Under the pieces are notes generated by a model. It saw only the letters and a list, made by a program, of their open reading frames with translations, was not told the DNA's origin and searched no databases. Below, piece by piece: positions 1 through 39,309 of a stretch of 42,890 nucleotides of DNA. The position numbers and the translations under genes were made by a program. This DNA comes from a virus, in IMG/VR virus record IMGVR_UViG_3300044608_000887, positions 1-42,890 of that record; one strand, written 5' to 3'. Every line of letters begins with the position of its first letter. Position 1 is the stretch's first letter.

Positions 1-3000
1 CTGTCGTTAATGGAAGCAAGCAGTTTGTTCTGGATTGTCAAACTTACAAAGTCATCCAACCCTAAAGAACTTGCAATGTTTCTAAACAAGCCACCAAAGG
101 TTTCGTTCTGGTCAATACGTGATCCTCTGGCTGCAAGGTGGTTTGTAAGACCCCGTTGTAAAACGGCTCGCTCGGTCAGCGGCTGGGTTTCTAGCCTGAC
201 AATAGCACCGTCTTCCGCTCTGTTTACATTCTCCATTTCTCGAATGACATCAAACTCAGTCATATCAAGAATACCGTGTGGATTCATTTCCTTGTTATTG
301 GTGATGTCTTCAATTTCAATTAGACGCATTTTTTCAGTGGGAGACAACGGGATTTTCTTTGCTATATTGTTATTAAGATTTCTTAACTCAATGCTGAGCC
401 GCTGAAGGTCTGTCACCATGCTTGGTGTTACTTCTGTAGAGTTGGGTCTAATTGACTTGACGGCGTTAAATGCCGTGTCTGGGTTTCCAGCGTCTACTCG
501 GGTTGCCATACCTTGGCCGATTATTCCCTGCATTACATTGTACATTTCGTTGAAATTAGCGGCGTATTTCGGATCAACTGCGATTTGGCTTACCATTTTC
601 AAACTTCGGACGGCAATGCTCTTAATCCTAAAGAACGCTTTCTTGTACCATGTATTAAGCATTTCTACTGGGGTATACTTTGCTTCAAGAGCAGACATCG
701 TTTCCTCGCTGTAGACTGTTTCGGCCAGCAACACGACAGCTCCCCAGTGAGCCAAGAACTCGTCCGTGTGTTCCATGGCATACCGAACATCTGCTTCGAT
801 AGCAGCATATGGCTTGTCCCTGTTCATGGCAAACAACATCTCTCGGATCATTTCTTCCGAGTTAGGTGTTCTAAAGATTGCTTGGATCTTTCTGTATTCG
901 TTGGAACCTTCGGCCATGTACTTGACTCGGGCAAGGTGAACAAGTTCTTCCGCAAACTTAAGCAACATTTCGTTTTCTGGTGTTGTTTCCATGGCCTTGA
1001 TGTTTAGACCAATGGTGTATTTGCCCTTAAGCTTAGCCATCTTGGCATAGGTGTGGCCATCAAACTCCATTGCCTCTAGTGCAAGATCTGACAGGATGTT
1101 TGGGTTGATTGATGCCAAGGAACCAATGAGGATCATCTTCATATCGGCAACACGACGAGACATTAGTTTCATGGCTACCATGCCATCCAACTGAGCTACG
1201 ATGCCACGACCAGCATCCCCAAAGGCGTTGATAAACTCATCACGGTCAGCAAACTTTGCAACATCCTTTCGGGCATCCCACGGTAGGTGGGTAAAGGGTC
1301 TGTCTTCTGGTACGGTAGTAAGGTCTTGCCGTGCATTAATGATTGCCCTGACCGCCTTGCTTCTTTCTTTGTCTGTTTTGTCCACTCCGACAGCATCCAG
1401 GATCTTGTTTTGAATCTCGGTGTTGTCTTCGATTCCGTCTTCTGTGTTTTCCATCTTTGACAACAAAGCGTGGGCTACATATGTCATTTGCTGGTTTTCA
1501 CCAGGTACGGCATCTGCAATCTTCTGCAAAAGCCGAGATACTCTGGTTGCGGCTTTGTATACCTTGTTCGCAGCTTCTTGGGTAATCTCCGTCTGTAGGG
1601 TAGACATAATTGTGTCTTTGACACCTTCTACTCTATTGCTTTTTATACCCTCTAGTCTTGACTTAAGAACAGCAGCCTTGATGACAATATGCTGGGTGTT
1701 GTTGATCCTTAGTGCCTTGTTTGTTTCGATCTTTACACTTGAGTTTTGCATCTCGGCCAGCAGGAACTCACCAAGCTCGTCGGCTTCTTTGTCCATACCA
1801 AGTTTTCTTGCTTTTGACATTGCTGCCAAGATGTCCGTAGCATACACGGCGGTTTCAAGAGGTACATTCTTCATCATGCGTGATTTACCACCCACGGTTA
1901 CTTCCATGTCAAATGTCTTTCCTAGGTACATGGTTGCATCTAGGGTTGCAGATGGTTTGCCGAATGCGTCTTTTCTTCTGTAGTTGTTTCTATACAGCAA
2001 AGCATTCTCGTTGCTTGATGGGTCTACGGTATGAAGCAATACCAACGCTTGGTGGGTAAGGTCTACGCTACGACCGACATTATCCATCAATTGTTTTTGC
2101 TGTTCCAAGACAAGGATATCTGTTTCTGTATTTGCAAAACCGACTGTCTTGTGTGTTTGCCAGCTTAGCTCAGCCGCAGAAATAACTGGATTATTCCTGA
2201 GTGAATTGAGGAACTGAATTACCATGTCTGGTGTAAAGTACCACAAAGTGTCTGGGTTGTTTACCTGACTAAAGACATGAACCATGTTTGTTAGTTTAGT
2301 TTTGATGTCCAACAAGCTTTGTCCTGGTGTGACAAGTTCTTTGGCTATTTTGCCCATACCGTCTAGGTGTTCTTTGTGAAGAACAAAATAAACACCCTTT
2401 TGAGTACCAAGCTCGGCAGCAAGTTGCGGAGCTTTCTTCAGGACTCTGTCAAGAATTTCTTCTGACTTTAGTTTGTCAGCAGGAAGCATAGACAGCACAA
2501 GATTTCCAGCGGAGTCTCTTGGGAACTTGTCAAAGTCAGGATCGGACCTATAGACTTCCTGCGCTTCTTTTTCAAACAAGTCGCTCATCATGAGCATCAT
2601 GACTGTATTGTTGTTGGTTTCGATGTTAAATACGCTTAGGGCTTTGTATGTGGGTGTTCCCTTGATTAGCCCTTGTTCTCCACGAACAATAAGTCCTGGT
2701 TCCAGCACTAGTGGGAATTCTGGCTTTAGTCCTTCTAGACGGTCAAATCTGGTTGATAGATGCCTGAGCAAATCCATGTAGCGAAGACCATCAGGGAAGT
2801 TTTTCCTTAGTTCATCCATCTCTTTGGTTGTGAATCGGATTTCTTCTGGCTTTGCCATAAGGTCCAACACGCTGTAGGTTTGTCCTGGGCTGTATGCTCT
2901 TGCATTGGTACCCATAAGCTTAAAGACAGATTCATACATGGCAATACGGGATGGGAACATATCCAAGATGCCGTTGTTAATCTGGTCCTTCATAACATTG

Positions 3001-6000
3001 ACCGACTTCTCCAAGCCTTGCCGCCTCCATTCCCTGATCATCCACAACCTAGTCCATTCCTTGTTTTCCAGCAACGACTCAAGACCGTTTTGCGTGGCAA
3101 AGTATGTCAGGCTGTTTCTGAGCTTGATTGCCTCTAGTTCTGTTTCCCGATTAGGTGACATAACAAGACTAGTGACCATGTTTCCAGTTTGATGTGGAAT
3201 ATAAGGTAGGTTCTTTTTATCGGTTGTCTTTTCAAATCCACGGAACCTAGATGGAATGATTGAGTTTGGGTCTCCATCCTGGGGAGCTGCCGTCAATAGT
3301 TTCTTCTTTTGGAACATCTCATTCTGTCGAATTTCACGACTCTTCATTACCTCAATCAAGGCATACATGCCACGCTGGGTATAATCCATGTTGGCGTACC
3401 GTGGCCGTAGTGCAGCCAACCCAGACACGGTTGGATCAAGTACAACAGGGTTTTTGTTATCCCTTCCATAGCTATTACGAACCCAAGTCAATCTTTCCTC
3501 AAAGCCACTCTTTCTTAGTTTCTTGGCGGTTTCTTGGATATTCTCATATTCGGGATCATTGGGGGATACTGAGTTTGCTTGTTCAAGGGTTCTAATTGCA
3601 TTGACCTGAGCAAGGCGTTCTAGGTTTGATCGCTTTTTCATTGCGTCAAAGTAGTTTTCCATGCTTTCTTTGTCTGGGTCATATCCTGGGTGGTAATAGT
3701 TAGGAACAAGGTCTAGCATGATCTGCATTGCGTATGCCTTGCGATATGCTTGTTCGCGTTCCTTGCTTTCATACACTTCGTTGATATCCCAGATACCGTA
3801 CTTGTTCTTTTCCTTGCCATGCAATACCCTGATTTGGGCTTCCTTTGGACCCTGTGGACCAAAGTCATAACTACCAAACATGTGGTGTCGTCCGCTGGCT
3901 AGTTCAGAACCCATTGCGTGGAACAATGTCTTGCCGACAAATGGCATGATGTCTGATTCGTCAATGTACTGCCCCGCCAACGCAGAGTGCATGGCTACTG
4001 TTTCCGCATCCGTAAACATCTTGAATGGAGTGGCTGCTCTTTTTGCAAGTGTAAACAACATAAGATGCGTCTCATAGGCTTTCTTGTCACCCATTAAAGC
4101 GATGTTGATTTCGTCTTGAATCTTGGGATCGCTTCGGATACCTGGGTTTGACATGTCATGTTTGGCCATGATTGCCGCAGCTTTGTTGATTCTTTCTTGA
4201 TATACTTTTCTTAGCTTTTCTTTTGAAGCGTTAATCGCATCATCTCTTTGCTTGTCATTTAGACCAGCAACGCTTGTGCCCTTTTGGGCTAGCATGTTTA
4301 CAAAAGCATTTAAGTATTTTTCAGCTGCGTCAAGTCTTGTCTTTGTGTCTTTTTCTCCAAACTTGTTTTTATCAAAAGATTCTTTGATCTTTTCGTTATC
4401 CAACTCAGAAGACATGTCCATAATGGCTTTTATGACCATATCTTTGGTGAATTGTCCATCTTTAGCTTTGGACATAATACCAATTGCCTTTTCGACGTAA
4501 GTGGCATTTTGTTTCATGGCTTCTCTTAGCACAATCTTGGCTGCAATACTGGCGTGGTTTAACCCTAGGTCCATTCCTTCCTTGTCGATTTTATCCAAGA
4601 TACCTTCAAAGATGCCATCAAAACCAGCATCGTACATAGCAGGGGTGATGATTCCCTTTAGGAATTCTTTTCTTTCTGGTCTATCAATACCAAGGAATTC
4701 TCCTAGTTGAACAAAAGTAACAAGCTCTTCTTCAGAAATCTTAAAAGCTGCCTTAAAACTTTCGCCATCTTTCTTGGCTTGCTCTAGCAAGGTGATCAAA
4801 TAATCATTTAGTTTTTCTCTGGGGTCGTTCTTTTCCTTGAATTCCTGTAGGTTTCTTCTTACATTTGGTTCGTTTGCTGTGTCTACGCTATTAAGGAACT
4901 GTGCGATAAAGTCATTGAAGACCGATAGGTTTTGTTTCTGATAGGCCAACGCCAACATTAGCTGGACATGGACCCCGTGATATGAGTAGTCACTTTTGTT
5001 ACCCATGTCTTGTACGGTAGGGTCAGCAACAATTGCGTCATATCCGTCAGACAACGCCTTTTGCAGCAGCTTTCGTAGGTGCTTGTTGTTTGGGTCAAGC
5101 ATGTCAAATGAAACAAGCCAAGCAGTATGGTCAACAGCGCCTGACAAAATCATCTTGGCGGTAGGTGCACCAGCTGTAAAGAAGTCTTCTGCGTAGTAAA
5201 CAGAACCCTTGGTTAGCCATCTACCTTTCTGAGCAAGGGGTGTATAGAAAGCATCGTGGTTGATAAACATCATGGCTCTTGGGATGTCAAACAAAAACTC
5301 CTGGCCAAGTAGTTCTCTTTCAGACAGGTCTGGCAAGAAATCGTATGGGCCTCTTGATGTAACCTTGGGGAATACACCTGGTACTGACCCTCTTCGGAAT
5401 ACAGACAAAGATACATTGGGGTCTGTATCTTCTGCGGTCTCCGCCCATTTCATGATCTCGTCAATCTCTTTGTCAGTAAGATCTCGCTCCATAATATCCT
5501 TGACTCTGGTCAACAATCTAAAGTTGTCGTAAATCAAGGCTTCTTCTGTGATGCCCCATGGAGACGCAAAGTTTGCTCCATCTAGCAAGAAGTACCTAGG
5601 TACACCTCTATTGGTGGCTTCCTTGGAGATAAAGTTTCTCTTGCTGAGTTTTTCAGTATTCATCAAAGACTGGGTATCAACAAGTGACATACCTTCTTTG
5701 CGGTCTGTAAAGACATGGGCTAGTGCTCTGCCTACATCGGTAGCTGGGTGCCAGTCGATTGTTCCGTCTCCAAAATCAGAAAGGCTGTCAATTGAAATGT
5801 AATTCTTAAGAACCTGAACTAGATTTTCTCTGACATATCTTTGCGGTGATTCAGTTTCACCAACTGGAGGAATACCAAAACTTTCGGCAAACTCGGTAAA
5901 TACCGTATCCAGTTGACGGCTGGTTGACAAGGCGTCCACAAAGCTGATGGCAATGGTTTCGATGTATTCATCTTTGCTGCCACCGTTATACATTTCTGCT

Positions 6001-8978
6001 TCGTTGATTTCAAATACACCAGGCTTTGTTTCTGCAACATCCATGGCAATGGTGCCATCACCACGAAGGCGTAAAGACAATACATAACCAAAGGTATCAA
6101 AGTTTTCCTTGGCTGACTTCTTAACTGCATCAGCCATACGCCGTGCAATGTTTCTACCAGTTTGCTGAACAATGGTATCTACATTCACAGCTTCGGTAAG
6201 GGCTTTTTGTAATTCGTTTACCCTATCTTTTGATTCTGGATCCATAGCCAAGGCTTGCATGTACCAGCCCTCGACCAACGAAATAAGCTTGTCTAGGTTG
6301 ATGTCAAGCTCTTCGGTGTACTCTACATTTAGGACAAAATTCTTTAGATTGCTTGATGTGTTTCCAAAAGGAGCCATGATCTCACCCAAGGTAGTTGAGT
6401 GAATGTTACTGCTGTTGATTGGCAGCATCATGTTTGATCTTGGTCTACTGGTTACAATTGTATAGTCTTTGGATGAATCCCTTTTGTCCTTAACCGTGAC
6501 AATAGTCTTTTGAGACCCCATGAAATGGTTGAACAACCCTAGCGTGATAACGACATCGTTTTCAGCATACAAGTCAAACAAAGCCCAGTCGCCATCTGCG
6601 TTTGCCAGGTTAAAGTTTGCTTCGGCTTCTGCCCCTGTAACCTCGGTTTCGGTTTTCTTGTCATCCGACATTCTGAGAACAGCCCCATTTGTGATTACAT
6701 ATCTACCGTCAGGGGAAATCTCCCTTATTGGTGGTAGGTTGTTCTGGGCCAGTGACTTTAGGTTTGCATTCTTTGGGTTGCTGGTGTAATATGCACCGCC
6801 CTTTTCCCGTTCAGTATTGTCAAATCCAAGGTTTCTTTGAAGGTCATAACTTCTTAGGGCTACTCTTGACACTAGGTTTTTGTTGTCTACAAAGTTAACC
6901 AATTTACCTAAGTCAAAATGATTACCAGCAAAGGTTACTAACTTAAAACCGTTATTCTGATACCCTTCAAGGAAGTTCAAGACATATTCAATCTGTTGCT
7001 TATTCAGTGGTTTTCTTGTTCCAGTTGGGAGATCTTTGGAATTTGTTGGAATACCCGAATCATCGGTGTTTGAGAAAATAAAGGTTACTGGCTCTTTAGC
7101 GTTTGACTTGTCTTGAACCCTGACTTGCATAGACAGAATCTTAGATGGGTTTCCTGTTGTTTTGTCTGTAAGATCTGTTTCAATGTCATAGGAAACAGCA
7201 TCCATTCTGTTGTCAAAGTCAGGTTGAAACTCAGGTAGTGTTTCTGGGTTTGCAATACCAAGATCCTTCAGGGTATCCTGGAGCTTCGATACATACAAAG
7301 TTTTACCAGCTTCTCCTAGCTTTCTCTTTCGCTTGCTGACAAGACCAAGGTCATCTGAATTGATAGACAAGTCATACAACCTAGGGTGGAGCACCATATC
7401 TACGGCCTTGCTAGAAATGGTTCCATTATAGTAGGGGCTTGCTCGTAGGCTGTATAGACCTCTAATGGTGTACTCTAGCCAGCTGGACAACTGACGGGCG
7501 GTAGACGCTTTGTTTTCATCTGGGATTACACCAATGTTGGTGTTTAGCAAAGCCTCAGAACCAGTCCTGTCCTGCTTGACAACAAGGTTATTGATGTCTG
7601 TTTCAAGAGGGTTAGCCACTCCGTTCTGCGTAATAATGGCCTCTAGGAGATTTAACTCTGAGTCCATTACCGTTGTGACATTGTCAGCAAAGGTACCGCT
7701 TTCGACACCACGCCAAGCGATTCTTTCCCACTCCTTGATAATTTCCTTGGCTTGTTCTTTGGTAAACAAGGTTCTATCGATGGGCTTTGCTTCCTTATCG
7801 TCTGCTTCTCTTTTTTCACGACGACGGAGGTAATACTCTACGATTGGCTTACCAACCATATTATGCATCAAAAGGTGGTCGATTTCGTTTTCAGCACCAC
7901 CGTTTTTGACGGATTCCGCTTCAAAGAAATCAACCAAGTTGTTCATGCGCTCAACGGTGTTCTTGATGTTTTTTGCAGCCAGTCTTTCCTGTGCTAGTTG
8001 ATTAGCAAGGGTTGTTGCGGATGCAACGGTTAGTTCTGAGATTTCAGCAGAGTCCAAACTCTCCAGTTTGGCCGCTTCTTTTTCAATTGCTGCTGTAACC
8101 TGGTCTCTAGCCAAGGCAACAGACCTGATTTTAATTGAGTCTTTACCACCCAGCTCTACAACCTTTTCATCAATCAACTCCTGAAGTAACGCTTTTTCCG
8201 AGGCTCTTGCTTCGGTTAGTTGTTTTTCAAGTTCTTTGATCTCTGCTTTCCTTTCCTTGGTTCCTTTTACACCCTCTTTAAACCTATTTAGCAGTTTCTT
8301 GCTTGCTTTAATGGTATTTTCAAGGTTTTTAATATTTGCTTTGATCATGGCATATGAACGAAGCTTTGCTCTAACATCCTTGGGTGTAGCCACATTGATT
8401 GTATATTCGATGTAAGTAAGGATTTGCTTAAGTTGGTTAAGCTTATTGAGGGCACTGTCTCTTTTCTGCTTTTTCTCTCCATCTTTAACCCCATCATAAA
8501 CCCTTTCTCTATCCAGTTTTTCCTGGATTTTGTTTCTTTTTTCATACAAACCTGGCAAGACTTCTTCTCTACCAAGGTTTCTGTTCATTGTAATCAACTG
8601 GTCGATGTTTTCGATCTGAGACAGGCTAAACAGGTTAACATCACCCTCTGCAATTCTGATCTTTGACAAAAGGGTAGCAAGTCTGTCGGCTTTTTCTGCT
8701 GGTAGCATTCGTGAAATCAAGTCTTTAAAGGTGTATACAAAACCACCCTCAATTACCTTGGAGATGTTGCTAGTTAGTTCGTCAACTGTTTCTCTCAGGA
8801 AAGCTTTGTCTTCGTCTGTAAGAAAGTCTGTTACAAGGTCATCAATTTTATTGCTGAATGTTGGATCGGAATCTCTTTCCGTGATCAAAGTAATAACAGC
8901 ATCCGCGTCTTCCTTGGCATAGCCATTACGGAGTAACTGTTCATAAATAGCTTTCTTTTGTTCGATGGTACAGGCCAT
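1..8978 (-). CDS. Giant internal virion (ejection) protein with embedded DEDDy exonuclease domain, 3' end outside window
   Basis: I read this frame codon by codon: it opens at ATG 8978 (protein begins MACTIEQKK) six bases after the preceding stop, behind GAGGA, and I found no stop over 2,992 codons to the window edge (above 320 kDa). It is the last gene of the internal virion protein set, so by position it is probably packaged and ejected like T7 gp16. The N-terminal 550 residues are mostly charged helix. Residues about 590-820 hold a DnaQ/PolB-like 3'-5' exonuclease signature: D598-I-E600, N686-H-F-D689 and Y804-x3-D808. Around residues 1436-1456 is R..K-x7-Y..G..GI, recalling motif B of single-subunit RNA polymerases; this is tentative. 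Near residues 2677-2681 EELVH, followed by DEFLAH, resembles a degenerate zinc-peptidase site. The rest I do not recognise. The frame and exonuclease are well supported; the virion role is inferred from context. Confidence 0.88.
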   Translation of the reverse strand, partial: MACTIEQKKAIYEQLLRNGYAKEDADAVITLITERDSDPTFSNKIDDLVTDFLTDEDKAFLRETVDELTSNISKVIEGGFVYTFKDLISRMLPAEKADRLATLLSKIRIAEGDVNLFSLSQIENIDQLITMNRNLGREEVLPGLYEKRNKIQEKLDRERVYDGVKDGEKKQKRDSALNKLNQLKQILTYIEYTINVATPKDVRAKLRSYAMIKANIKNLENTIKASKKLLNRFKEGVKGTKERKAEIKELEKQLTEARASEKALLQELIDEKVVELGGKDSIKIRSVALARDQVTAAIEKEAAKLESLDSAEISELTVASATTLANQLAQERLAAKNIKNTVERMNNLVDFFEAESVKNGGAENEIDHLLMHNMVGKPIVEYYLRRREKREADDKEAKPIDRTLFTKEQAKEIIKEWERIAWRGVESGTFADNVTTVMDSELNLLEAIITQNGVANPLETDINNLVVKQDRTGSEALLNTNIGVIPDENKASTARQLSSWLEYTIRGLYSLRASPYYNGTISSKAVDMVLHPRLYDLSINSDDLGLVSKRKRKLGEAGKTLYVSKLQDTLKDLGIANPETLPEFQPDFDNRMDAVSYDIETDLTDKTTGNPSKILSMQVRVQDKSNAKEPVTFIFSNTDDSGIPTNSKDLPTGTRKPLNKQQIEYVLNFLEGYQNNGFKLVTFAGNHFDLGKLVNFVDNKNLVSRVALRSYDLQRNLGFDNTEREKGGAYYTSNPKNANLKSLAQNNLPPIREISPDGRYVITNGAVLRMSDDKKTETEVTGAEAEANFNLANADGDWALFDLYAENDVVITLGLFNHFMGSQKTIVTVKDKRDSSKDYTIVTSRPRSNMMLPINSSNIHSTTLGEIMAPFGNTSSNLKNFVLNVEYTEELDINLDKLISLVEGWYMQALAMDPESKDRVNELQKALTEAVNVDTIVQQTGRNIARRMADAVKKSAKENFDTFGYVLSLRLRGDGTIAMDVAETKPGVFEINEAEMYNGGSKDEYIETIAISFVDALSTSRQLDTVFTEFAESFGIPPVGETESPQRYVRENLVQVLKNYISIDSLSDFGDGTIDWHPATDVGRALAHVFTDRKEGMSLVDTQSLMNTEKLSKRNFISKEATNRGVPRYFLLDGANFASPWGITEEALIYDNFRLLTRVKDIMERDLTDKEIDEIMKWAETAEDTDPNVSLSVFRRGSVPGVFPKVTSRGPYDFLPDLSERELLGQEFLFDIPRAMMFINHDAFYTPLAQKGRWLTKGSVYYAEDFFTAGAPTAKMILSGAVDHTAWLVSFDMLDPNNKHLRKLLQKALSDGYDAIVADPTVQDMGNKSDYSYHGVHVQLMLALAYQKQNLSVFNDFIAQFLNSVDTANEPNVRRNLQEFKEKNDPREKLNDYLITLLEQAKKDGESFKAAFKISEEELVTFVQLGEFLGIDRPERKEFLKGIITPAMYDAGFDGIFEGILDKIDKEGMDLGLNHASIAAKIVLREAMKQNATYVEKAIGIMSKAKDGQFTKDMVIKAIMDMSSELDNEKIKESFDKNKFGEKDTKTRLDAAEKYLNAFVNMLAQKGTSVAGLNDKQRDDAINASKEKLRKVYQERINKAAAIMAKHDMSNPGIRSDPKIQDEINIALMGDKKAYETHLMLFTLAKRAATPFKMFTDAETVAMHSALAGQYIDESDIMPFVGKTLFHAMGSELASGRHHMFGSYDFGPQGPKEAQIRVLHGKEKNKYGIWDINEVYESKEREQAYRKAYAMQIMLDLVPNYYHPGYDPDKESMENYFDAMKKRSNLERLAQVNAIRTLEQANSVSPNDPEYENIQETAKKLRKSGFEERLTWVRNSYGRDNKNPVVLDPTVSGLAALRPRYANMDYTQRGMYALIEVMKSREIRQNEMFQKKKLLTAAPQDGDPNSIIPSRFRGFEKTTDKKNLPYIPHQTGNMVTSLVMSPNRETELEAIKLRNSLTYFATQNGLESLLENKEWTRLWMIREWRRQGLEKSVNVMKDQINNGILDMFPSRIAMYESVFKLMGTNARAYSPGQTYSVLDLMAKPEEIRFTTKEMDELRKNFPDGLRYMDLLRHLSTRFDRLEGLKPEFPLVLEPGLIVRGEQGLIKGTPTYKALSVFNIETNNNTVMMLMMSDLFEKEAQEVYRSDPDFDKFPRDSAGNLVLSMLPADKLKSEEILDRVLKKAPQLAAELGTQKGVYFVLHKEHLDGMGKIAKELVTPGQSLLDIKTKLTNMVHVFSQVNNPDTLWYFTPDMVIQFLNSLRNNPVISAAELSWQTHKTVGFANTETDILVLEQQKQLMDNVGRSVDLTHQALVLLHTVDPSSNENALLYRNNYRRKDAFGKPSATLDATMYLGKTFDMEVTVGGKSRMMKNVPLETAVYATDILAAMSKARKLGMDKEADELGEFLLAEMQNSSVKIETNKALRINNTQHIVIKAAVLKSRLEGIKSNRVEGVKDTIMSTLQTEITQEAANKVYKAATRVSRLLQKIADAVPGENQQMTYVAHALLSKMENTEDGIEDNTEIQNKILDAVGVDKTDKERSKAVRAIINARQDLTTVPEDRPFTHLPWDARKDVAKFADRDEFINAFGDAGRGIVAQLDGMVAMKLMSRRVADMKMILIGSLASINPNILSDLALEAMEFDGHTYAKMAKLKGKYTIGLNIKAMETTPENEMLLKFAEELVHLARVKYMAEGSNEYRKIQAIFRTPNSEEMIREMLFAMNRDKPYAAIEADVRYAMEHTDEFLAHWGAVVLLAETVYSEETMSALEAKYTPVEMLNTWYKKAFFRIKSIAVRSLKMVSQIAVDPKYAANFNEMYNVMQGIIGQGMATRVDAGNPDTAFNAVKSIRPNSTEVTPSMVTDLQRLSIELRNLNNNIAKKIPLSPTEKMRLIEIEDITNNKEMNPHGILDMTEFDVIREMENVNRAEDGAIVRLETQPLTERAVLQRGLTNHLAARGSRIDQNETFGGLFRNIASSLGLDDFVSLTIQNKLLASIND
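6551..7200 (-). other. DEDDy 3'-5' exonuclease domain inside the giant virion protein
   Basis: This is a sub-domain of the giant gene. Exo I is YDIETD (D598, E600) in a beta-strand-like context followed by the strand KILSMQVRV. Exo II is TFAGNHFDLGKL with N686 and D689. An NLKSLA helix, usual before Exo III, precedes YAENDVVITL (Y804, D808), which gives the Y-x3-D form of the DEDDy subclass. All four acidic residues plus the tyrosine are present, so the domain is predicted to be active. This family normally proofreads in DNA polymerases or acts as a free nuclease. No family A or B polymerase follows directly. The domain assignment is from motifs read by eye. Confidence 0.75.
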
Positions 8979-8984
8979 GGTTCC

Positions 8985-11546
8985 TCACTTACAAATCTTG
9001 CTGATCAAAGAAATTAACTCTGGTTTAGACATGACGATATCTATAGCATTGGTTATTGTGGCTGAAGTTGGTTTTGTTTCTGGCTCAGGTGCAACCTCGG
9101 GGGCCGTAGGTGCAGCCACAGGAGCCGTAGGAGCAGTCTCAGGAGCCGTAGGAGCAGTCTCAGGAGCCGTAGGAGCAGTCACAGGCGCAGCCTTAGGCGT
9201 AGCCTTAGCTACCGCTTCTGCTGTGTTCCTAGCGATTATATCAGCATTCTCTGCTTGGTTAACCAAAAGATCTTGATCTGGTGCCTCGGTACTAGATGTA
9301 TTGGTTGGTGGGTTTTCACTAAGGAGCTTTGAAGCCGCGCTTTGTAAAGCTAGGATCTTTGTTTCTTCTTCTTTAAAGGATTCACTGTTTTCAAGAATAT
9401 CCTTTTTGACAGCTTCCGCAACCTCTGTTTCTGTCATACCAGCAGCTTTGTGCTTTTCGGCTAGCTTACCTTCTATTTGTGTCCGCAAAACCAATGCACC
9501 GATCTCAGAAGCATCGGTAAATGTGGTTTGGTTTCCTGCTGCAACCAACCTTACTACTGTTTCTAATGCTTCAAGAGACATCGTAACTTTGCCGTCATCT
9601 CTGACAGCAAGGAAACCTGGGTGTTCTTGAATAAACTGTGACAACTTGTTTGATTGGAAAGCACCTGTAGTGGGATCAAAAGTACCAATACCAGTATTGA
9701 GGTTATTTAGCCACTCGTTAACCGCCAGTACTGCACCTAATGCTGACTTTTGGTTTGTGTTTTCCGAGGCCATCTCAATATTACTTAGTGCTCTGATGGC
9801 ACTTACAAAACCTTCGTTTTTCTTGTCTTCCAATCTACCGAAGGTGTTGTTGCTCATTTCGTTTAGCAAGGATTCTGTAACCAAGGCTCTTGCTTCTGCT
9901 GCTAAACGAACATGCTGTTCTTCTACGCTTAGGTCACCTAGGTTTGTTCCCGTAAAGGCGTTCATATACAACCTAAATTCACTGAGGCGGCTTGGATTAA
10001 TGTCTAGTACTCTTGTTACAGCAAAGTCTGAAATCGCGTTACCGCTTATTCTAAGGCCATATCCTGCTATTGAAATAGGAATACCAGCTACTTTAAAAGC
10101 ACCAGCAAGTACTGGACCCATGGCTGCTCCCATAAAAGCTGATTCGGTCATTTGACCATAGTCAAACGAGACCTGAGTATCAAGTTTGTGGATGTTTAAC
10201 AACTGGTTAGCAACATCAATAGCCCCTTCCTCGACAAACTCGGTTGCCATTGGTCCCACAAAGTACTTCATCCACTTTGCATTACCAACGGTTGGACCTA
10301 CGGTTTTGTTAAGCAAGGTAGAGGCAATGTTTACTGGTAGGTAATCTTGGGTTTTCTTAATTGCTTGACCTACCTTGTGAATTTTGGCGGCTCTTTCGGC
10401 AATCTTGGCTGCTCTTGCACCTGTTTGAGCAGTGGCTAGTCCTGCCCTTGCGGTAAATGTAGCCGCGCCTGAAATAGCCGTACCAACACCAGCAGTGGCT
10501 GCTGCAATGACTACCTGACCAACCATATCCGGTGAATCAATGGTACCTGTGAGCTGGTCCCAAGTAAATCTGGCTGCTTTTTCAATTGGTCCAGCGGTCA
10601 TTGAGTATACTTCTGCTGCTTGCGCCATTGCTTTATTGTTTACAGCAGAGTTTACTCGATACCTAAAATCGAATGCATTGTTTGCTGTTGTCAAGTCATC
10701 TTCAGTAAGTCCTGCATTTTGAAGATATGCCCAAAACTCTGGATCTTCTTTTTGAATTAGATTAAGCAAAGCAGATCCATCAAACTCAGGGTCTTTTTTC
10801 TGAAACAACACTAATTCAGCATTATTTTCAGTTGCGTAAAACGAGCTGGCAAGTGGCAGGGTTTGAAGCATTCCCTCGTAAGCATACAAACCAGTAATTG
10901 GGTCTAAATATGCATAGGGGTTTAAGAACTTTAAAGACTTTTTAATATAACTTGGGCTATACTTACTAGCTTGTAAAAACTCATATTGTTCTGGTGTTGT
11001 GTTCCCGTCCAGCATGGCTTTCATTTTACCATAGGCTTTTGAACCCATAAACAAAGCATCGCTAGTCGAAAGGTTTGCTTTTTCATACGCTGTATTAGCC
11101 GACATACCCAAAAACTCAAAAACATTGCCGTAGATATTACCGGCATGTGTAAGTTCATTATAGCTCATCCAATCTTTTTGTACAACACCATCGCGGTCAA
11201 TAAACAGACTGTCCCTGTTTGTTGGGCCTTCTCTATTAAACATTTGAGTTGGGTTTCTTGCAGCAAACTTATCTAAAAATCTATCTGAACCAGCTTTAAT
11301 TTCAGAGATTTCTTGCTCTATGTCTTCTAGTGCTTTTTGGTTTACAGTTCTCCCAAGACTACGGATTATAGTATCGTTTATGTCTTTTACTTGGTCTTCT
11401 GATACTAGGTTTGCGTAATATGGTTGTCCTTTTTCATCGACTGTAAGTCCCAAAACCTTGTCAGTAATCTCTTGTTGCAGTGATCTTTGTTTTGGTTGAT
11501 TAGCAAGTAAATTATCTACCGCAGTTTGTAAGCCAAAAGAACTCAT
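8985..11546 (-). CDS. Internal virion protein with alanine/proline repeat tail
   Basis: This 853-residue protein lies between the gp15-like and giant virion proteins and starts at ATG behind AAGGAAAC. The N-terminal 300 residues are soluble and charged. The middle holds long Gly/Ala-rich hydrophobic stretches (roughly residues 335-370 and 455-500) that could insert into a membrane, as expected of proteins that form an ejection channel. Towards the C-terminus comes a low-complexity region of TAPTAPE-type heptads, then a short conserved-looking end, AIDIVMSKPELISLISKI. I do not recognise a catalytic domain. By position and composition it is one of the internal core proteins (T7 gp14-gp16 group) released into the cell with the DNA. 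Family membership is inferred from synteny. Confidence 0.65.
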   Translation of the reverse strand: MSSFGLQTAVDNLLANQPKQRSLQQEITDKVLGLTVDEKGQPYYANLVSEDQVKDINDTIIRSLGRTVNQKALEDIEQEISEIKAGSDRFLDKFAARNPTQMFNREGPTNRDSLFIDRDGVVQKDWMSYNELTHAGNIYGNVFEFLGMSANTAYEKANLSTSDALFMGSKAYGKMKAMLDGNTTPEQYEFLQASKYSPSYIKKSLKFLNPYAYLDPITGLYAYEGMLQTLPLASSFYATENNAELVLFQKKDPEFDGSALLNLIQKEDPEFWAYLQNAGLTEDDLTTANNAFDFRYRVNSAVNNKAMAQAAEVYSMTAGPIEKAARFTWDQLTGTIDSPDMVGQVVIAAATAGVGTAISGAATFTARAGLATAQTGARAAKIAERAAKIHKVGQAIKKTQDYLPVNIASTLLNKTVGPTVGNAKWMKYFVGPMATEFVEEGAIDVANQLLNIHKLDTQVSFDYGQMTESAFMGAAMGPVLAGAFKVAGIPISIAGYGLRISGNAISDFAVTRVLDINPSRLSEFRLYMNAFTGTNLGDLSVEEQHVRLAAEARALVTESLLNEMSNNTFGRLEDKKNEGFVSAIRALSNIEMASENTNQKSALGAVLAVNEWLNNLNTGIGTFDPTTGAFQSNKLSQFIQEHPGFLAVRDDGKVTMSLEALETVVRLVAAGNQTTFTDASEIGALVLRTQIEGKLAEKHKAAGMTETEVAEAVKKDILENSESFKEEETKILALQSAASKLLSENPPTNTSSTEAPDQDLLVNQAENADIIARNTAEAVAKATPKAAPVTAPTAPETAPTAPETAPTAPVAAPTAPEVAPEPETKPTSATITNAIDIVMSKPELISLISKICK
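9119..9181 (-). repeat. Three tandem 21-bp repeats coding for TAPTAPE heptads
   Basis: Three consecutive near-identical 21-bp units (each beginning CAGGAGCCGTAGG on the plus strand) lie in frame in the internal virion protein and encode TAPTAPE, TAPTAPE and TAPTAPV. Degenerate copies flank them on both sides. The length is a multiple of three, so gain or loss of a unit would keep the frame. It is probably a flexible linker that can change length by slippage. Confidence 0.9.
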
Positions 11547-11580: not shown

Positions 11581-14500
11581 TTACATCTTACCAGGGAACG
11601 GCATTTTAAACTGTATTTGGTTTGTCGGTTTTGGTTGAGTTATGTTTCTAATTTTTAGGATGTTTGCTGTAATCGCTTCTTTTTCTTTTTCTATTGCTTG
11701 TTTTGATCTTATAACTGGTCTTTCTCTTTTAAACACGGTTCCTGTATTTGGCTTATCTAACCGAATGACTCTTGAACCTATTTCAAGAACTGGATAAAAC
11801 TCACCTGTTTCATAGTTTCTTTTTGTGTTGATTCTAAAAGCAAACTGAGTTGTTGTTTTGTCTAGTTCTTTTTTTAGTACTTCCTTAAACACGGGGTTTT
11901 CGTTAAGCCGATCAAACAAGGTTTGGTTTCTAGCCCTTGGTGTTGTTGGGGCTTTTCTAGATTGTACTGCAACACCAGCTTGCACATACACTTGATCTAG
12001 GATGTGTGTGTACTCTTCTTCGGAATAGTTTTCATCAGCCATAACCAAGTATCCAGCTAGGTCTAGTTCTGAAGATAGGTAAAAATTTTCGATTGAATAC
12101 CGAGATTCATCAGGGCTTATTTGACTTAAGCCATCTAAAGTTCTTTTAACAGTTCCCTTGACTTCCCGCATAGAAAATGGTGCATTTTGTCCAGTTTCAT
12201 TAATTTCTTCAAAGCTTAGGTCCTGTCTTTGGGTATTTACAAATCCTTCGTTTTTTATGGTTGTTGTTTTTTCAAAAAAAACTCTTGGGGGTGCGGTTAG
12301 TCCTAGCCTATCTTCGGGATACAGTAGGGTTTTTCCTATTTGGATTTTGTTTAGATCAGAGACTTGTACTTTTTCGTCAGCTAAATACAGAAACATAGAT
12401 AACAATCGTTCCGCGTTTTCTGTTGTTCCTTGTGCGTTACTCAGTCTTTCTAACGCAAATAAAACCTTATCAGAATCTCCAAAATCCTTTAGTTGCTTTG
12501 TTGTTTTGTTTCCGTTTGCATCTTGAATGCTTACATAAGCACCAGAACTACTGTTCCATTCTGGGAGGTCAACAAGAGTTCCAACAAATTTGTAAAATAA
12601 TTCTGAACTTCCAAAACCAAGTGCTCTCACAGTTGATTGCAGAACTTCTGGTTTTCTGTAATCATTTGAACCTAGATTAGCCGTGGCAATTAAATCCTCT
12701 CCAATACTCCTGTATCCTGTTCTAGATTGTGATAATGAAAAGTGTACAGGATTTCCTCTATCTCCAAAATCTCCAGCGCCTTGGAACTGAGCCGCTACAC
12801 TTAGTAGTTGTTTTACTTGTTCAGCGTTTGCTCTAAAGCGAGAATCAAAGGAATTAATTTCTACAAAAGAAGCCATAGGCATAGCGGCCATCATTGAAAA
12901 TGCGCTTATTGAATCGCTTCCAATTCCAAAAGAACTAACAATGTCGGCTGTTTTACCTGAGTCTTGTATTGCTTGGGCAATGGTAACTGCTGTATAAAGC
13001 TCATTATACGGAACCCTATCTATGCCCCTTTCTTTTATGTTGGTCAAGATTGTTTTAAAATCGGTTACATATTCCCTGAGTTCTGGAGTATCATAACCAT
13101 TTCTAAGCATATGGTGAAGCATGTGTCTATAAATCAGTAAGTCACCCAAACCATCTGGTGTTAATCTTCCGTTTTCGTCAGCAATGTTTCTTTTTGAAAA
13201 ATTCATGGGCCTTACCCCAGACAGACCCAAAATCCTATCGCGGCTTTCAGCAGGATCCAAATCCATTACTCGTTGAACACCTTCACTTAGATTCCAATCT
13301 GAAGCGTTGTCTAACTTAAGCTTTTTAACAGTTTCATCTAGCCAGCCTGGTAATGTAGTTGCTACATGATTAAGCTGACCAATTTCTGTTATTATTTTAA
13401 CCCTATCTTTTTCGTTTAATTGACCAAGAATACTTGGGTCTTTTATGGCACTTCTAATCCCTTCAATTTTTGCTGGGCTAGCCGTAAGTAAGCTAATAGA
13501 TGCTTCTTCTGGTGTGGGCAATTCCCTTAACTGACTGACACTACCAGTTTCTTCTTGTTTTGAGCCACTTTGGATTTGAATGTTTATGCCATCAAACACC
13601 ATACCATACATTTTTGTTTTTAGATCAGCATATGAATCTTTCTCAAACCCATTGTCTTTTAGGATTGTCTTTAAATCCCCTGGCATTTGGTTCCACCAAT
13701 CCCTGAAAGAACTATGGTCTAGGAAAATTGTATCAACGCCTCCAACAACACCCCGCCCAGCAGAGAATAAATACTGGACAAATTCACTTTGTTTGTCTTC
13801 TGGAATGCCTACGCTTTTAGCAAGGCTTGTATAAACGGCTTCTAGTCTAGCTTCAACAACATTCTTTGGAAGCTTTTCAGCTAGAGGTTTTATCACGCCC
13901 AAGTCAAGCGCGGTTTCATTTAAGGCATTACCAACTCTGTTTTTCCATTCTGGGGTACTAATAAGCGCTTCTCTTTGAACTTTGATCCAAGTTTGATAAT
14001 CTATTCCAGCGGGTAATACAGTATCCCAGTTTTTAAAATCGTCAAGTTCTTCTTTAATTTTTTCCCAAATCTCGTGTGGAGATACACCTGGTGTCTCATC
14101 TAGTTTTGCTTGGAATACTTTAGGAACCAAAGAACTTACAATACCTTGTCGCTGGTCTGGTGGTAATACATTAATGTTAGCCGCTACTTGCACAAGTAAA
14201 TCATTAGTTTTTTTGTTTGCGTTAAATACATTCACAGCGGCTGCGATGTTAGACCCTGCCTCAGACTCTGCGGCCATTGATTTTTGTACCCGCTTAAGAA
14301 GATTAAACATAGGGGCTTTTTCAACTATTGAAGAATCTACTGCCCTAAGTATTTCTTCTTTTATGTCGTCTGGTACATTTTGCAGCTGGGGTTGTAAGGT
14401 GTCTTTTACATGTGAAGCAACAAACTCAAAAACTTCTTCACCAGTGGCATCGTTTGGAATTTTGTTTGCCAAATCAAAATATACTGGGAAGTTTTGTTCT

Positions 14501-15249
14501 ATTTCTCGTTTAACTTTTGGGTCATTTGTTAAGGTATACTCATTAAAAGTACTCTCGGATGGTAGTTGCATCAGACTATCTACAGCTGCTTTTACTCTGA
14601 CCCTAGTACTGTGTGTTGCATTTATAGCAACCTTGGCTTTGTTATCTGCCTTTGTGGTTTGATACCAGGATACCTGTCTAGCAAGGGGATGTCTATTCTC
14701 GTACTCTTGTTGGAACACATCCAATAGCTCTGGCGTAATTTGTGAGTTTCTGTCTAGGTTTCTGCTATTAAGAAAGTCACCTAGCTCAGACTTATATCGC
14801 CTCTCTTCAAACGAATCCATGGCATCTCCCGAAAGCCATTGTTTTTTTACCCTGTTGTTAATGTCTTTCTTCCAGTTTTCGCCTAACAGTGGGGTATAGA
14901 TTCCTTTTAAACCGTCTTCTAGTTTTGTAAACTTTGTATTGCCATCTATGGTTTCATCAGCATCAATTTCATCAAAAAGGAGCTGTGCTTTCTGAACTTT
15001 TTCCTTTTCTAGTCTAGAACCAATGTCCGCAAAAACATCAAGACCCTTAGCTACGCCCCCAGCAATTTGAGCAAGGGCTGCATAAGAGGCTTCTTCTGAC
15101 GATGGTCCTACTTGTTGCCTAGGCTGAGCCACCTGCATTTGGCCACCTACGGAACGGCTTTCAATAAACTGAGGAGCGGGGGCTGCAATTTCAACAGATG
15201 GGGCTGCTTGGTTAAAACCTAGTAAACCTTGTGAATTAACTCTTGACAT
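11581..15249 (-). CDS. Large internal virion protein, T7 gp15-like by position
   Basis: This 1,222-residue protein begins with ATG 15249 behind AAAGGAG, ten bases after the gp14-like gene. It starts with a disordered Ala/Pro/Gln-rich region (about 1-55), then is mainly soluble and helical with no predicted membrane segment. It ends in a basic tail (RERPVIRSKQAIEKEKE, then a Pro/Lys-rich end). T7 gp15 is about 750 residues and also ends basic, so this one is markedly longer. In T7 gp15 forms the middle of the ejectosome that carries DNA across the periplasm. Here the role is inferred from its position between a gp14-like protein and further giant virion proteins. I see no enzyme motif. Confidence 0.65.
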   Translation of the reverse strand: MSRVNSQGLLGFNQAAPSVEIAAPAPQFIESRSVGGQMQVAQPRQQVGPSSEEASYAALAQIAGGVAKGLDVFADIGSRLEKEKVQKAQLLFDEIDADETIDGNTKFTKLEDGLKGIYTPLLGENWKKDINNRVKKQWLSGDAMDSFEERRYKSELGDFLNSRNLDRNSQITPELLDVFQQEYENRHPLARQVSWYQTTKADNKAKVAINATHSTRVRVKAAVDSLMQLPSESTFNEYTLTNDPKVKREIEQNFPVYFDLANKIPNDATGEEVFEFVASHVKDTLQPQLQNVPDDIKEEILRAVDSSIVEKAPMFNLLKRVQKSMAAESEAGSNIAAAVNVFNANKKTNDLLVQVAANINVLPPDQRQGIVSSLVPKVFQAKLDETPGVSPHEIWEKIKEELDDFKNWDTVLPAGIDYQTWIKVQREALISTPEWKNRVGNALNETALDLGVIKPLAEKLPKNVVEARLEAVYTSLAKSVGIPEDKQSEFVQYLFSAGRGVVGGVDTIFLDHSSFRDWWNQMPGDLKTILKDNGFEKDSYADLKTKMYGMVFDGINIQIQSGSKQEETGSVSQLRELPTPEEASISLLTASPAKIEGIRSAIKDPSILGQLNEKDRVKIITEIGQLNHVATTLPGWLDETVKKLKLDNASDWNLSEGVQRVMDLDPAESRDRILGLSGVRPMNFSKRNIADENGRLTPDGLGDLLIYRHMLHHMLRNGYDTPELREYVTDFKTILTNIKERGIDRVPYNELYTAVTIAQAIQDSGKTADIVSSFGIGSDSISAFSMMAAMPMASFVEINSFDSRFRANAEQVKQLLSVAAQFQGAGDFGDRGNPVHFSLSQSRTGYRSIGEDLIATANLGSNDYRKPEVLQSTVRALGFGSSELFYKFVGTLVDLPEWNSSSGAYVSIQDANGNKTTKQLKDFGDSDKVLFALERLSNAQGTTENAERLLSMFLYLADEKVQVSDLNKIQIGKTLLYPEDRLGLTAPPRVFFEKTTTIKNEGFVNTQRQDLSFEEINETGQNAPFSMREVKGTVKRTLDGLSQISPDESRYSIENFYLSSELDLAGYLVMADENYSEEEYTHILDQVYVQAGVAVQSRKAPTTPRARNQTLFDRLNENPVFKEVLKKELDKTTTQFAFRINTKRNYETGEFYPVLEIGSRVIRLDKPNTGTVFKRERPVIRSKQAIEKEKEAITANILKIRNITQPKPTNQIQFKMPFPGKM

Positions 15250-15259
15250 TATTGCTCCT

Positions 15260-16036
15260 TTATCCTATTGCATTATTACCAGAAACACTACCAACAGATT
15301 GTGGAGTATTACTGAAATTTTCTACATTACTTGAAGAACCCAAACCACCATCACTATATTGTGCTGGACTTGGGCTTGAAGAAGATGTTGAACCCATAGA
15401 TCCTATAGCAGCGCCCGCAAAGGCACCGCCAATTTGAACCAAACCAGACACCATTCCAGCTGTCCTAGCAGCTCCCGCATCACCGTAAATGGGCTGGTCA
15501 TCAAACATAGCAATGTTTGGCATAAACACATTTTCGGTTGTTTGTTGAAGCATTGATTGCTTTTGTTTTGTAATGTTGTTTAGTTGTACCATTGCATTCT
15601 TTTCAAATGACTTGGCAGCTCTTAGTGCATTGATGCTTTGGGACATGTTTAACGCCGCGTACAGCCCGCTGTTCTTGGAGACCCCTCTGGATAGGATGTC
15701 ATTGACCAAAGCCCCCCGCTGGGCTTGTAGCTGCTTGCTAAGCTCTCCCTGTTGGAAGGTCACGGAGTCCTTTACGGCTTGCTTAGCATCCCACTCATAT
15801 TCCCATGCGGCTTTAGTAATAGCCTCGTTTCTTTTCATCTGTTGAGCAAAAGCCTGGGCAGACTCAAACTGAGACTTAGCGTTATTAATGGCTTTTTGAT
15901 TGTTTTGAGCAATCCAGTTTCTAAATGCTTGTTGATTCTGGGCAGCTATGGCAGCACTTTGGGAACGACCACCAAAGATGGAACTTAATCCACCAGCCAC
16001 CGCTGACCCTAGAGCGATCATTGTCATTGGTTCCAT
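15260..16036 (-). CDS. Internal virion protein, T7 gp14-like
   Basis: This 258-residue protein starts at ATG 16036 behind AAGGAG, ten bases after the large terminase gene. It opens with a small Ala/Gly hydrophobic segment (MIALGSAVAGGLSSIFGG), continues as a long Ala/Gln-rich amphipathic helix region (about 25-165), and has a second Gly/Ala membrane-like stretch (about 185-215) before a Ser/Pro/Gly-rich tail. This layout is typical of T7 gp14-type core proteins, which enter the outer membrane during infection. It opens the run of four ejection genes. In T7 the equivalent gene precedes the tail fibre, whereas here it follows the terminase. Confidence 0.7.
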   Translation of the reverse strand: MEPMTMIALGSAVAGGLSSIFGGRSQSAAIAAQNQQAFRNWIAQNNQKAINNAKSQFESAQAFAQQMKRNEAITKAAWEYEWDAKQAVKDSVTFQQGELSKQLQAQRGALVNDILSRGVSKNSGLYAALNMSQSINALRAAKSFEKNAMVQLNNITKQKQSMLQQTTENVFMPNIAMFDDQPIYGDAGAARTAGMVSGLVQIGGAFAGAAIGSMGSTSSSSPSPAQYSDGGLGSSSNVENFSNTPQSVGSVSGNNAIG

Positions 16037-16046
16037 TGTACTCTCC

Positions 16047-17717
16047 TTACCAGCCCCATTGTCTGGATGATCTATTTGGTTTCTTTTTAGCAGTAGTGCT
16101 TATTACTCTGATTGCTCCACTAGTGGGGGCATAGTCAGCAGCCCTAAAGTTTTCAGACCAGTTCTTTATGGTCTTTAGCCATTCCTTTTTCTTAAGGTCT
16201 TCGGATACCTTTTGCTTGTCTGTTGACATGTGATCCTTGTAAAACGCAACAGCGTGACTAAGGGCATCGACACGGTCATCGTTCTTCAAGGCTCCTTTAC
16301 CCCTATGTAGTCTGGTAAGTTGGATTTGGTTCTCATGGTTCATAATTGCCTTGCGGTCAATTACAAGCCTATGGGAAGACATCACTGGTTCTAAGATGTC
16401 TATGATCCGTCTTTCTTTTTGACCCGTTACTTTGAACTCTTCAATACCCACTTGGTGGGGACAGTTAGCAGCAATCACTGGTGCCAAGATCTTTGAAAAC
16501 ATACCGTCACCAAAGTTAGACTCAATCCTAACCAATGGTAACTCATATTCATTTATAAGAGCACAGATCTTCTTTAGAGTAGGTTCATCATAACCACCCG
16601 CAACACCCAGCAACTCTGCAATAAAAGTCGTACCCGAAAGAACACCAGCTACGCAGATACCAGTTTCGTTGGTACCACGACCCGATGTGTCAATAGCCAT
16701 GTGCTTATGCTGATATGGCATAAAGTTGGTGGATATGTGCATTGGTTCTGGGACAGCATCACCTGAGATACCAAACATAGGTATGCCCTGCATAAGGTTC
16801 TGGCCTTGCCAGATCAACTTATCAGGTGCCAAGGATGGGTGGACATCCATTACAATAAGATCCCTGAGTTTTAGGGGGTACTTGTCCATGTCGGCTAGGT
16901 TTGTAACTAGCTTGTACTGGAGCGCATAGTGACTTGGACCAATCTTGGCTTTTCTGCTTGCTAGTAAGTCTGCATCAAATCGCTCTGGCTGCGTAGGCAT
17001 CCCAGGTTCTATACCAAGGTCTAGAACCCACGGAGCCACATCTTCTACTTCATATGGGATTGAAGAGTCAGGCATCTCGGCTGGATACTTGATCATGGGG
17101 TACGACTCCTTTAGGGAGTTGTAAATGGAATCCTGGTAGTGAGGAGTACCTAGGAAGATAACCCGTGATCCTTTGTTTCTGATTGACTCCAGTTCGGCTA
17201 GTTTCTTAAGCAATGCTTCCTTACCCAATGGTGTTTCATTCTTACCAGAAATTTCAATGTCATCTAAAATGATACGATCTGCGTGAAGACCCGTAATCTG
17301 ACCTGTGATACCCCTGGCGGCACAACTAAGGTCTTGGGTAAACTTTGACCTAACTGCAACATTGAATCCAAGGGCGTTGTCTTTGTCGATATCCCTTGGC
17401 AGTAGATATTGGCAATATGGTACAACACTAAGGATCTTTCTAGACTGGGACACAAAGTCAATAGCTTTGGACTGCGTGTTAGAAAGCACCAAGAAGGTGA
17501 GGTTGGGATCCCTAAGCCATTCCCAGCTGCTGGCACATGCCGTAATGGTTGACTTACCAGTGCCTCTTCCTGCCGCTAGGATAGAGTCATTGGCACCTTC
17601 TTGGTACTCTCTTGCGATCTCGTACTGAATTCGGGTAGGTTCTCCAAGACCAAGATACTTGAAACAAAAGAACAAATGATTTCTAAAGTCATCTATGACT
17701 TCCTGGGGAACCTTCAT
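16047..17717 (-). CDS. Terminase large subunit (DNA packaging ATPase/nuclease)
   Basis: This 556-residue protein starts at ATG behind CTAAGGAGGG. The N-terminal ATPase has Walker A GRGTGKST (residues 50-57), Walker B IILDDIE (149-155) and the coupling-type motif LGTPHYQDSIY (about 189-199). The C-terminal RNase H-like nuclease has AIDTSGRG with D343, an acidic site near ESNFGDG (about 399-405), and DDRVDALSHA (480-489). The basic and aromatic C-terminus ends in RQWGW. Order, length and the TPHYQDS motif match T7 gp19 (DNA maturase B). It packages concatemeric DNA into the prohead at the portal together with the small subunit encoded just upstream. Confidence 0.96.
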   Translation of the reverse strand: MKVPQEVIDDFRNHLFFCFKYLGLGEPTRIQYEIAREYQEGANDSILAAGRGTGKSTITACASSWEWLRDPNLTFLVLSNTQSKAIDFVSQSRKILSVVPYCQYLLPRDIDKDNALGFNVAVRSKFTQDLSCAARGITGQITGLHADRIILDDIEISGKNETPLGKEALLKKLAELESIRNKGSRVIFLGTPHYQDSIYNSLKESYPMIKYPAEMPDSSIPYEVEDVAPWVLDLGIEPGMPTQPERFDADLLASRKAKIGPSHYALQYKLVTNLADMDKYPLKLRDLIVMDVHPSLAPDKLIWQGQNLMQGIPMFGISGDAVPEPMHISTNFMPYQHKHMAIDTSGRGTNETGICVAGVLSGTTFIAELLGVAGGYDEPTLKKICALINEYELPLVRIESNFGDGMFSKILAPVIAANCPHQVGIEEFKVTGQKERRIIDILEPVMSSHRLVIDRKAIMNHENQIQLTRLHRGKGALKNDDRVDALSHAVAFYKDHMSTDKQKVSEDLKKKEWLKTIKNWSENFRAADYAPTSGAIRVISTTAKKKPNRSSRQWGW

Positions 17718-38543: not shown

Positions 38544-39309
38544 CCTTGTTCTCCAAAATGTCTCTAATTGCATTGTTATTAGGGGTCCATAACTTAATTT
38601 CCCCCGTTTCTTTGTTGTAATCCCCGTCCCTTAGGATTCTTACGCACCGTGCCTGGGACAAGGCAAACTCTTCTCTGTACATTTCTACAGGACGCTTTTC
38701 TTCTGGCCGCTTAGCCCAGTCTTCGTCTTGGTACATTGACATAATGATTGAATCCCAGGCTTCTCTTGGCTTTAGCATAAGAAGTTTCTTGGCTTTGGCT
38801 GGACCAATCTTCCATAAACCCCAAATGTTATCGGTAGTATCTCCAGTCATCCACTGTTGATAAAAATAGAAATCAGCATCATCTTGGGATACCGTAACGG
38901 GTTCTGGTTCCTTATCTGGGTTCCAGTGAACCCCAGGAATCTGTCTAAGGTCTTTGTCAACCGTTACGCCAATTGCCCTACCAGAACTAACAAGCATGCC
39001 AATAAGGTCATCTGCCTCTAGTCTGGCAACACAGCGTGTTGTACAGGTATTGTAGATGCACTCAAGAGCAACCTTCATGGAATCTGGGGATTTGAAATCA
39101 TCTCTGTGTTGCTTGTACCTAGGCCAAAAGTCTCGTCTAAAATTATCGGAACGAGGACAAGACATGGCAACAATGACATTTGTAGAACCTTTGGGTGTCC
39201 ACAATTCAATGTCTTTTTTAATTCTGTAAGGTAGTTCATCAACGCCTTCTACATCAGCCCAGAACGCAGCCCTATAGGCTATGATATCTCCATCAAGGAT
39301 TGCTTCCAT
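38533..39309 (-). CDS. 5'-3' exonuclease, T7 gp6-like (FEN/PIN family)
   Basis: A 258-residue protein starting at ATG behind AGAGGAAG and overlapping the kinase gene by 17 bases. Motifs in order are LDGDIIAYRA (first metal ligand), FRRDFWPRYKQHR, ARLEADDLIGML, TVDKDLRQIPG and GDTTDNIWGLWKIGPAKAKK (helical clamp and DNA-binding H2TH part). The C-terminal VRILRDGDYN with LWTP matches the end of T7 gp6. It removes RNA primers and degrades host DNA to nucleotides for reuse. In T7 gene 6 lies after polymerase, as here, with the kinase and HNH gene in between. Confidence 0.9.
   Translation of the reverse strand: MEAILDGDIIAYRAAFWADVEGVDELPYRIKKDIELWTPKGSTNVIVAMSCPRSDNFRRDFWPRYKQHRDDFKSPDSMKVALECIYNTCTTRCVARLEADDLIGMLVSSGRAIGVTVDKDLRQIPGVHWNPDKEPEPVTVSQDDADFYFYQQWMTGDTTDNIWGLWKIGPAKAKKLLMLKPREAWDSIIMSMYQDEDWAKRPEEKRPVEMYREEFALSQARCVRILRDGDYNKETGEIKLWTPNNNAIRDILENKDEQ

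Follow-up and report, generated by a model that had tools for sequence, protein, structure and literature searches.

The gp50 protein of phage N4 (Schitoviridae), about 3,500 amino acids long, is ejected and consists of loosely connected domains (PMC12633501). Polymerases of the N4 type are usually fused to a metallopeptidase (PMC5512222). The polyvalent proteins of Iyer et al. (2017) combine effector domains with a metallopeptidase and are predicted to enter the host together with the DNA (PMC5512222), and the gp16-like proteins of T7-type phages range from 609-1337 aa (PMC8954989). Proteins are delivered by phages along with the DNA, and a conserved, mobile exonuclease module carried by a giant protein that is probably ejected would offer an early effector open to direct testing.

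The stretch of DNA analysed here (the window) is one entire IMG/VR record of 42,890 bases from an uncultivated, T7-like virus that infects bacteria. Its gene content is T7-like and includes DNA polymerase A, a 5'-3' exonuclease-type gene, ribonucleotide reductase, a head-tail connector, capsid, nozzle and a T7-type terminase. Past the terminase come three genes, for 258, 1,222 and 853 aa, and then a giant gene (Table 1). It starts at an ATG at position 8978 with a GAGG ribosome-binding site upstream and runs down the minus strand to position 3, giving 2,992 codons without a stop and an end still open at the edge of the contig; the giant stop-free frame of at least 2,992 codons described for 1-8978 in the initial annotation was thus borne out. 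Since the window is the whole record, the gene is truncated by the contig end. The protein of the closest relative, L157, is complete, with 4,046 aa, and shares 58.7% identity with the window's protein across all 2,992 residues of the latter; the predicted full-length product of the giant gene is about 4,050 aa. Whole-protein searches with the window's giant returned nothing usable in Pfam, PHROGs, PDB, 50,697 phages or IMG/VR.

Table 1. Features of the giant gene and its surroundings in the window
Feature	Position	Strand	Basis or remark
Giant gene, first 2,992 codons	3..8978	minus	ORF; 3' end lies past the contig end
Zincin/SprT-like peptidase-type domain, residues 2560-2800	579..1301	minus	Pfam match of relatives
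DEDDy 3'-5' exonuclease domain, residues 545-862 (core about 590-835)	6393..7346	minus	Pfam on aligned members, AlphaFold, Foldseek PDB
Exo III, Y804-x3-D808 (YAEND)	6555..6569	minus	sequence, conservation
Exo II, residues 684-689 (AGNHFD), catalytic D689	6912..6929	minus	sequence, conservation
Exo I, D598-x-E600 (VSYDIET)	7179..7187	minus	sequence, conservation
853-aa gene	8985..11546	minus	gp16 position by synteny only; one frame with the giant in G013
1,222-aa gene	11581..15249	minus	gp15 position by synteny only
258-aa gene, gp14-like	15260..16036	minus	weak match to PHROG 805, internal virion protein
Large terminase subunit, T7 type	16047..17717	minus	defined clade
5'-3' exonuclease-type gene	38533-39309

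The initial annotation had the giant preceded by three internal virion protein genes. Three genes are indeed present at this place, but a virion match, and a weak one (E 4e-4), was obtained for the 258-aa product only; the 1,222-aa and 853-aa products gave no family match, and homology was undetected between the gp14-like gene and T7 gp14 and between the 853-aa gene and T7 gp16. Because the weak virion match concerns the 258-aa gene alone, the "ejection position" of the giant is deduced from synteny. Identity of the terminase reaches about 37-38% at most with those of isolates and 72-81% with those of uncultivated contigs. No isolate of the clade was present among the 50,697 phage records searched, and no relative was found when genome contigs were scanned for a host. 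A T7-type RNA polymerase gene (PF00940) was not matched within the window; in relatives the clade's gene is present, in the portion that is missing from the window. In several of them (G029, G025, G014, G038-G040, G042 and G043; e.g. L129:14869-16641 and L128:1483-3255) there are two such polymerases, one of normal size (about 810-840 aa) and another that is shorter (about 590-690 aa), divergent and encoded a little way downstream of the giant gene; the latter retains motif B and the HD motif in G029 and G025.

Relatives were reached via the terminase and the gp14-like 258-aa gene. Searching with an alignment of the 258-aa protein added further contigs, and in 10 of them a homologous giant begins right behind the same gene block; a scan with the peptidase-type region as query brought in more giants, including L157. 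Homologues of the giant were found in about 20 IMG/VR contigs, all in a single terminase clade, and the complete ones have 3,999-4,182 aa. Wherever a contig holds both, the giant comes after the block of terminase and gp14-like gene and is set apart from the replication genes. Departures from this arrangement were also seen. In G013 (L083-L085) the 853-aa gene and the giant form a single frame of 4,764 aa, and in G014 (L086-L089) a single frame of 4,267 aa, not recognised by the profile, occupies the same place; in neither of these fused giants was an exonuclease detected by profile. In L130 (G033) the giant is broken at 10957-11026 into frames of 3,249 and 860 aa, by a sequencing error or a real break.

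A complete DEDDy exonuclease had been proposed inside the giant from D598 and E600, an N-x2-D containing D689, Y804 and D808, and a helix before Exo III. All these positions were exact: N686 and D689 lie in the context GNHFDLGKL with the N-x2-D spacing, and the helix, NLKSLAQ, precedes Exo III. Since 10 of 2,000 shuffles of the window's protein also contained an ordered motif set of this kind, the improbability of the motif under chance is only moderate, and the question is settled by its conservation in the relatives. When residues 545-862 of ten giants were aligned, Exo I, II and III were found to be conserved, and positions 598, 600, 689, 804 and 808 are retained wherever the sequence of a relative covers them, G028 excepted; the far relatives L171-L174 also retain the catalytic set. 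In G028 (L135) the domain persists with all five catalytic residues replaced (S, I, N, H, N). The dN/dS of the domain was 0.13 between the window and L157 and 0.04 between G033 and G034; the exonuclease domain is under purifying selection.

Profile and structure comparisons gave the same picture. In the relatives, the region matched RNase_H_2 (PF13482, 2.8e-6), DNA_pol_B_exo2 (PF10108, 7.3e-7), DNA_pol_B_exo1 (PF03104, 0.002) and PF01612 (0.037), while the window member alone stayed under the Pfam cut-offs (RNase_H_2, E 0.026). AlphaFold produced a confident domain (pLDDT 77.8, pTM 0.82) with matches to the exonuclease fold, in keeping with the RNase H-like exonuclease fold that the initial annotation had anticipated. 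In the Foldseek search of the PDB, all 50 of the 50 best listed matches were 3'-5' exonucleases or polymerases bearing one. A family B DNA polymerase and exonuclease I led the list (E 7e-4); TM-scores in this search were modest (0.23-0.33). The viral library gave no match below 0.001, and its named matches were mostly of the 3'-5' exonuclease kind too. By every computational test applied, namely Pfam, the model, the fold matches and the conserved catalytic residues, the domain classifies as a DEDDy 3'-5' exonuclease by homology, as had been proposed.

The exonuclease does not occupy the same place in all giants. Its place is near residue 600 in the window's group, but at residues 2924-3245, just ahead of the peptidase-type region, in L178. 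On both sides of this site the L178 giant is colinear with those of L177 and L176, to which it is 56% identical; these two have about 28 residues there instead and no exonuclease. The L178 exonuclease is therefore a clean insertion of about 320 aa relative to the exonuclease-less giants, and such a relocated, clean insertion marks the exonuclease as a mobile module. Among the 2,385 frames of the loci analysed, the exonuclease profile matched giants exclusively. Judged from these alignments, the exonuclease is gained, lost or moved as one unit.

The second recognisable domain lies towards the end of the window's part of the giant. In relatives this region matches SprT-like metallopeptidases (9.4e-5); the window member gave no Pfam match here. 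The motif reads EELVH in the window (936-950), and EExxH is found across the window's subgroup; HExxH is intact in the subgroup of G030, G027, G026 and G028 and also in G013. Because EExxH replaces HExxH, the peptidase of the window and its subgroup is probably inactive. The states of the two domains were also compared: a canonical DIET-type exonuclease goes with the degenerate peptidase (EExxH) in one subgroup, and HExxH with divergent or lost exonuclease motifs in the other (DLEW/DIEW; lost in G028).

A degenerate peptidase domain in the window's subgroup, together with the G028 domain that has survived the loss of its whole catalytic set, could mean that the exonuclease domain, too, is an inactive structural bead or a DNA-binding module. 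We consider this quite unlikely, as every other relative, however divergent, has retained the catalytic residues, and so has the relocated copy of L178.

Between the two domains no further domain could be assigned, either from the model or by comparison with the N4 virion RNA polymerase. Residues 1241-1452 (about 4,620-5,260, minus strand) contain strongly conserved HD, DxxxSGxH and K-x7-Y motifs. D1330xxxSGxH and K1441-x7-Y1449 suggested an N4-type RNA polymerase as a candidate, which was not supported by profile comparison, by a PDB profile search or by structure prediction. Under this idea, an exonuclease would have been added to a virion RNA polymerase of the N4 type; the giant's size and position are indeed similar, fusion to a metallopeptidase is usual in the N4 type (PMC5512222), and a short stretch at R1697 aligns with the motif region of N4 R424. 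The profile comparison was nevertheless not significant (probability 7%) and the model of residues 1131-2330 was unreliable and uninformative (pLDDT 45). Moreover, PF00940 was matched neither in the window nor inside the giants by a search that, in several relatives, does detect a pair of separate T7-type RNA polymerase genes. We regard this identity of the giant as highly improbable.

With regard to function, we think it fairly likely that virions package the giant alongside the ejection proteins and deliver it to the host together with the DNA, and that the giant's DEDDy domain is an active, transferable effector module which acts early. Packaging and ejection are plausible from the position and size of the gene, that is, from synteny and one weak family match, and we infer these two steps as well as catalysis by the exonuclease. 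The protein of about 4,050 aa would be packaged beside the ejection proteins of a T7-like phage, pass through the tail and refold in the cytoplasm, by analogy with N4 gp50 and polyvalent proteins. There, the DEDDy domain, most like the exonuclease domains of DNA polymerases, would work as an active 3'-5' exonuclease and trim 3' ends of nucleic acid before the phage genes are expressed. Its substrate and role are a guess on our part. The most likely role would be to shield the incoming genome, for example by recessed 3' ends that deny loading to nucleases of the RecBCD type, or to destroy nucleic acid of a host defence. RecBCD requires blunt or nearly blunt ends, and recessing the 3' ends would therefore protect the genome.

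For an ejected exonuclease, the initial annotation proposed either the trimming of ejected genome ends or the degradation of host DNA; the latter could supply nucleotides or shut off the host. An active-looking 3'-5' exonuclease in an ejection-type gene position would suit this purpose. However, the few copies expected per virion could do little bulk degradation, DEDDy exonucleases depend on free 3' ends and there are none on an intact circular chromosome, and the phage has a separate 5'-3' exonuclease-type gene as well as a DNA polymerase with its own exo motif. Host-DNA degradation is therefore decidedly improbable in our opinion. It could also be argued that the giant is not ejected at all and serves inside the cell as a protein of replication or repair, with its exonuclease acting on phage DNA as this is replicated, and that its gene simply lies in the late block. 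This would agree with the likeness of the domain, greatest to DNA polymerase proofreading domains, and with neighbouring genes that mostly have no family match. The giant nevertheless follows the terminase and gp14-like block, apart from the replication genes, and its size and peptidase-type partner domain resemble those of ejected giants, and we judge an intracellular function to be unlikely.

To return to early action after ejection, the broader proposal is that a new clade of T7-like phages ejects multidomain proteins of about 4,000-5,000 aa with interchangeable modules, among them a particle-borne DEDDy exonuclease that would process 3' ends of the incoming genome or of defence nucleic acid before phage expression; we regard the arguments for and against this full proposal as evenly balanced. 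On this view, T7-like phages too would possess very large multidomain proteins of the N4 gp50 type, apparently lacking an RNA polymerase domain.

Compared with known exonucleases, the giant's domain has the same fold and the same Exo I, II and III motifs as those of family B DNA polymerases, PF10108 and PF13482. Unlike the family B DNA polymerase exonucleases, it is embedded in a huge protein in which a polymerase domain was not detected. No virion-borne DEDD exonuclease was found in the literature searched, and tblastn with the giants of the window, G025 and G030 found no relative in 50,697 phage records, which supports the initial view that the domain is absent from known phage proteins of this kind. 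A DEDDy exonuclease domain in a giant, probably ejected phage protein has thus probably not been reported in such proteins before.

The T7 gp16-like proteins share a comparable neighbourhood, behind genes in the gp14 and gp15 positions, but they lack the exonuclease and are far shorter. Comparison of the giants and of the 853-aa family with T7-type gp16 gave an hhalign probability of 0.1% in each case, with thin profiles. The term "T7-type internal virion protein", if taken as homology, is accordingly not supported by the profile comparison or by the sizes of gp16-like proteins. N4 gp50 resembles the giant in being a huge single protein encoded by the last gene of the ejection block and in carrying a metallopeptidase domain (PMC5512222), whereas there is no significant sequence relation between the two, the RNA polymerase domain was not detected in the giant, and no DEDDy exonuclease is reported for gp50 in the literature searched. 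Polyvalent proteins, like the giant, are very large and have several unrelated enzyme domains in varied combinations and a zincin-like metallopeptidase. They are recognised by at least two domains of disparate activity, and the giant has an exonuclease and a SprT-like peptidase-type domain, the latter with a degenerate motif in the window. The polyvalent families LPD, ArdC-N, DdrB-ParB and ART had no Pfam match in nine giants, so that of the domains named for polyvalent proteins only a peptidase-type one was matched, and neither a DEDD domain nor any named exonuclease domain occurs in the text that describes them (PMC5512222). The giant thus fits the idea of a polyvalent protein, with a domain that Iyer et al. 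do not name, and it is better described as a giant of several domains, probably ejected, whose presumed mode of action resembles that of N4 gp50 or the polyvalent proteins.
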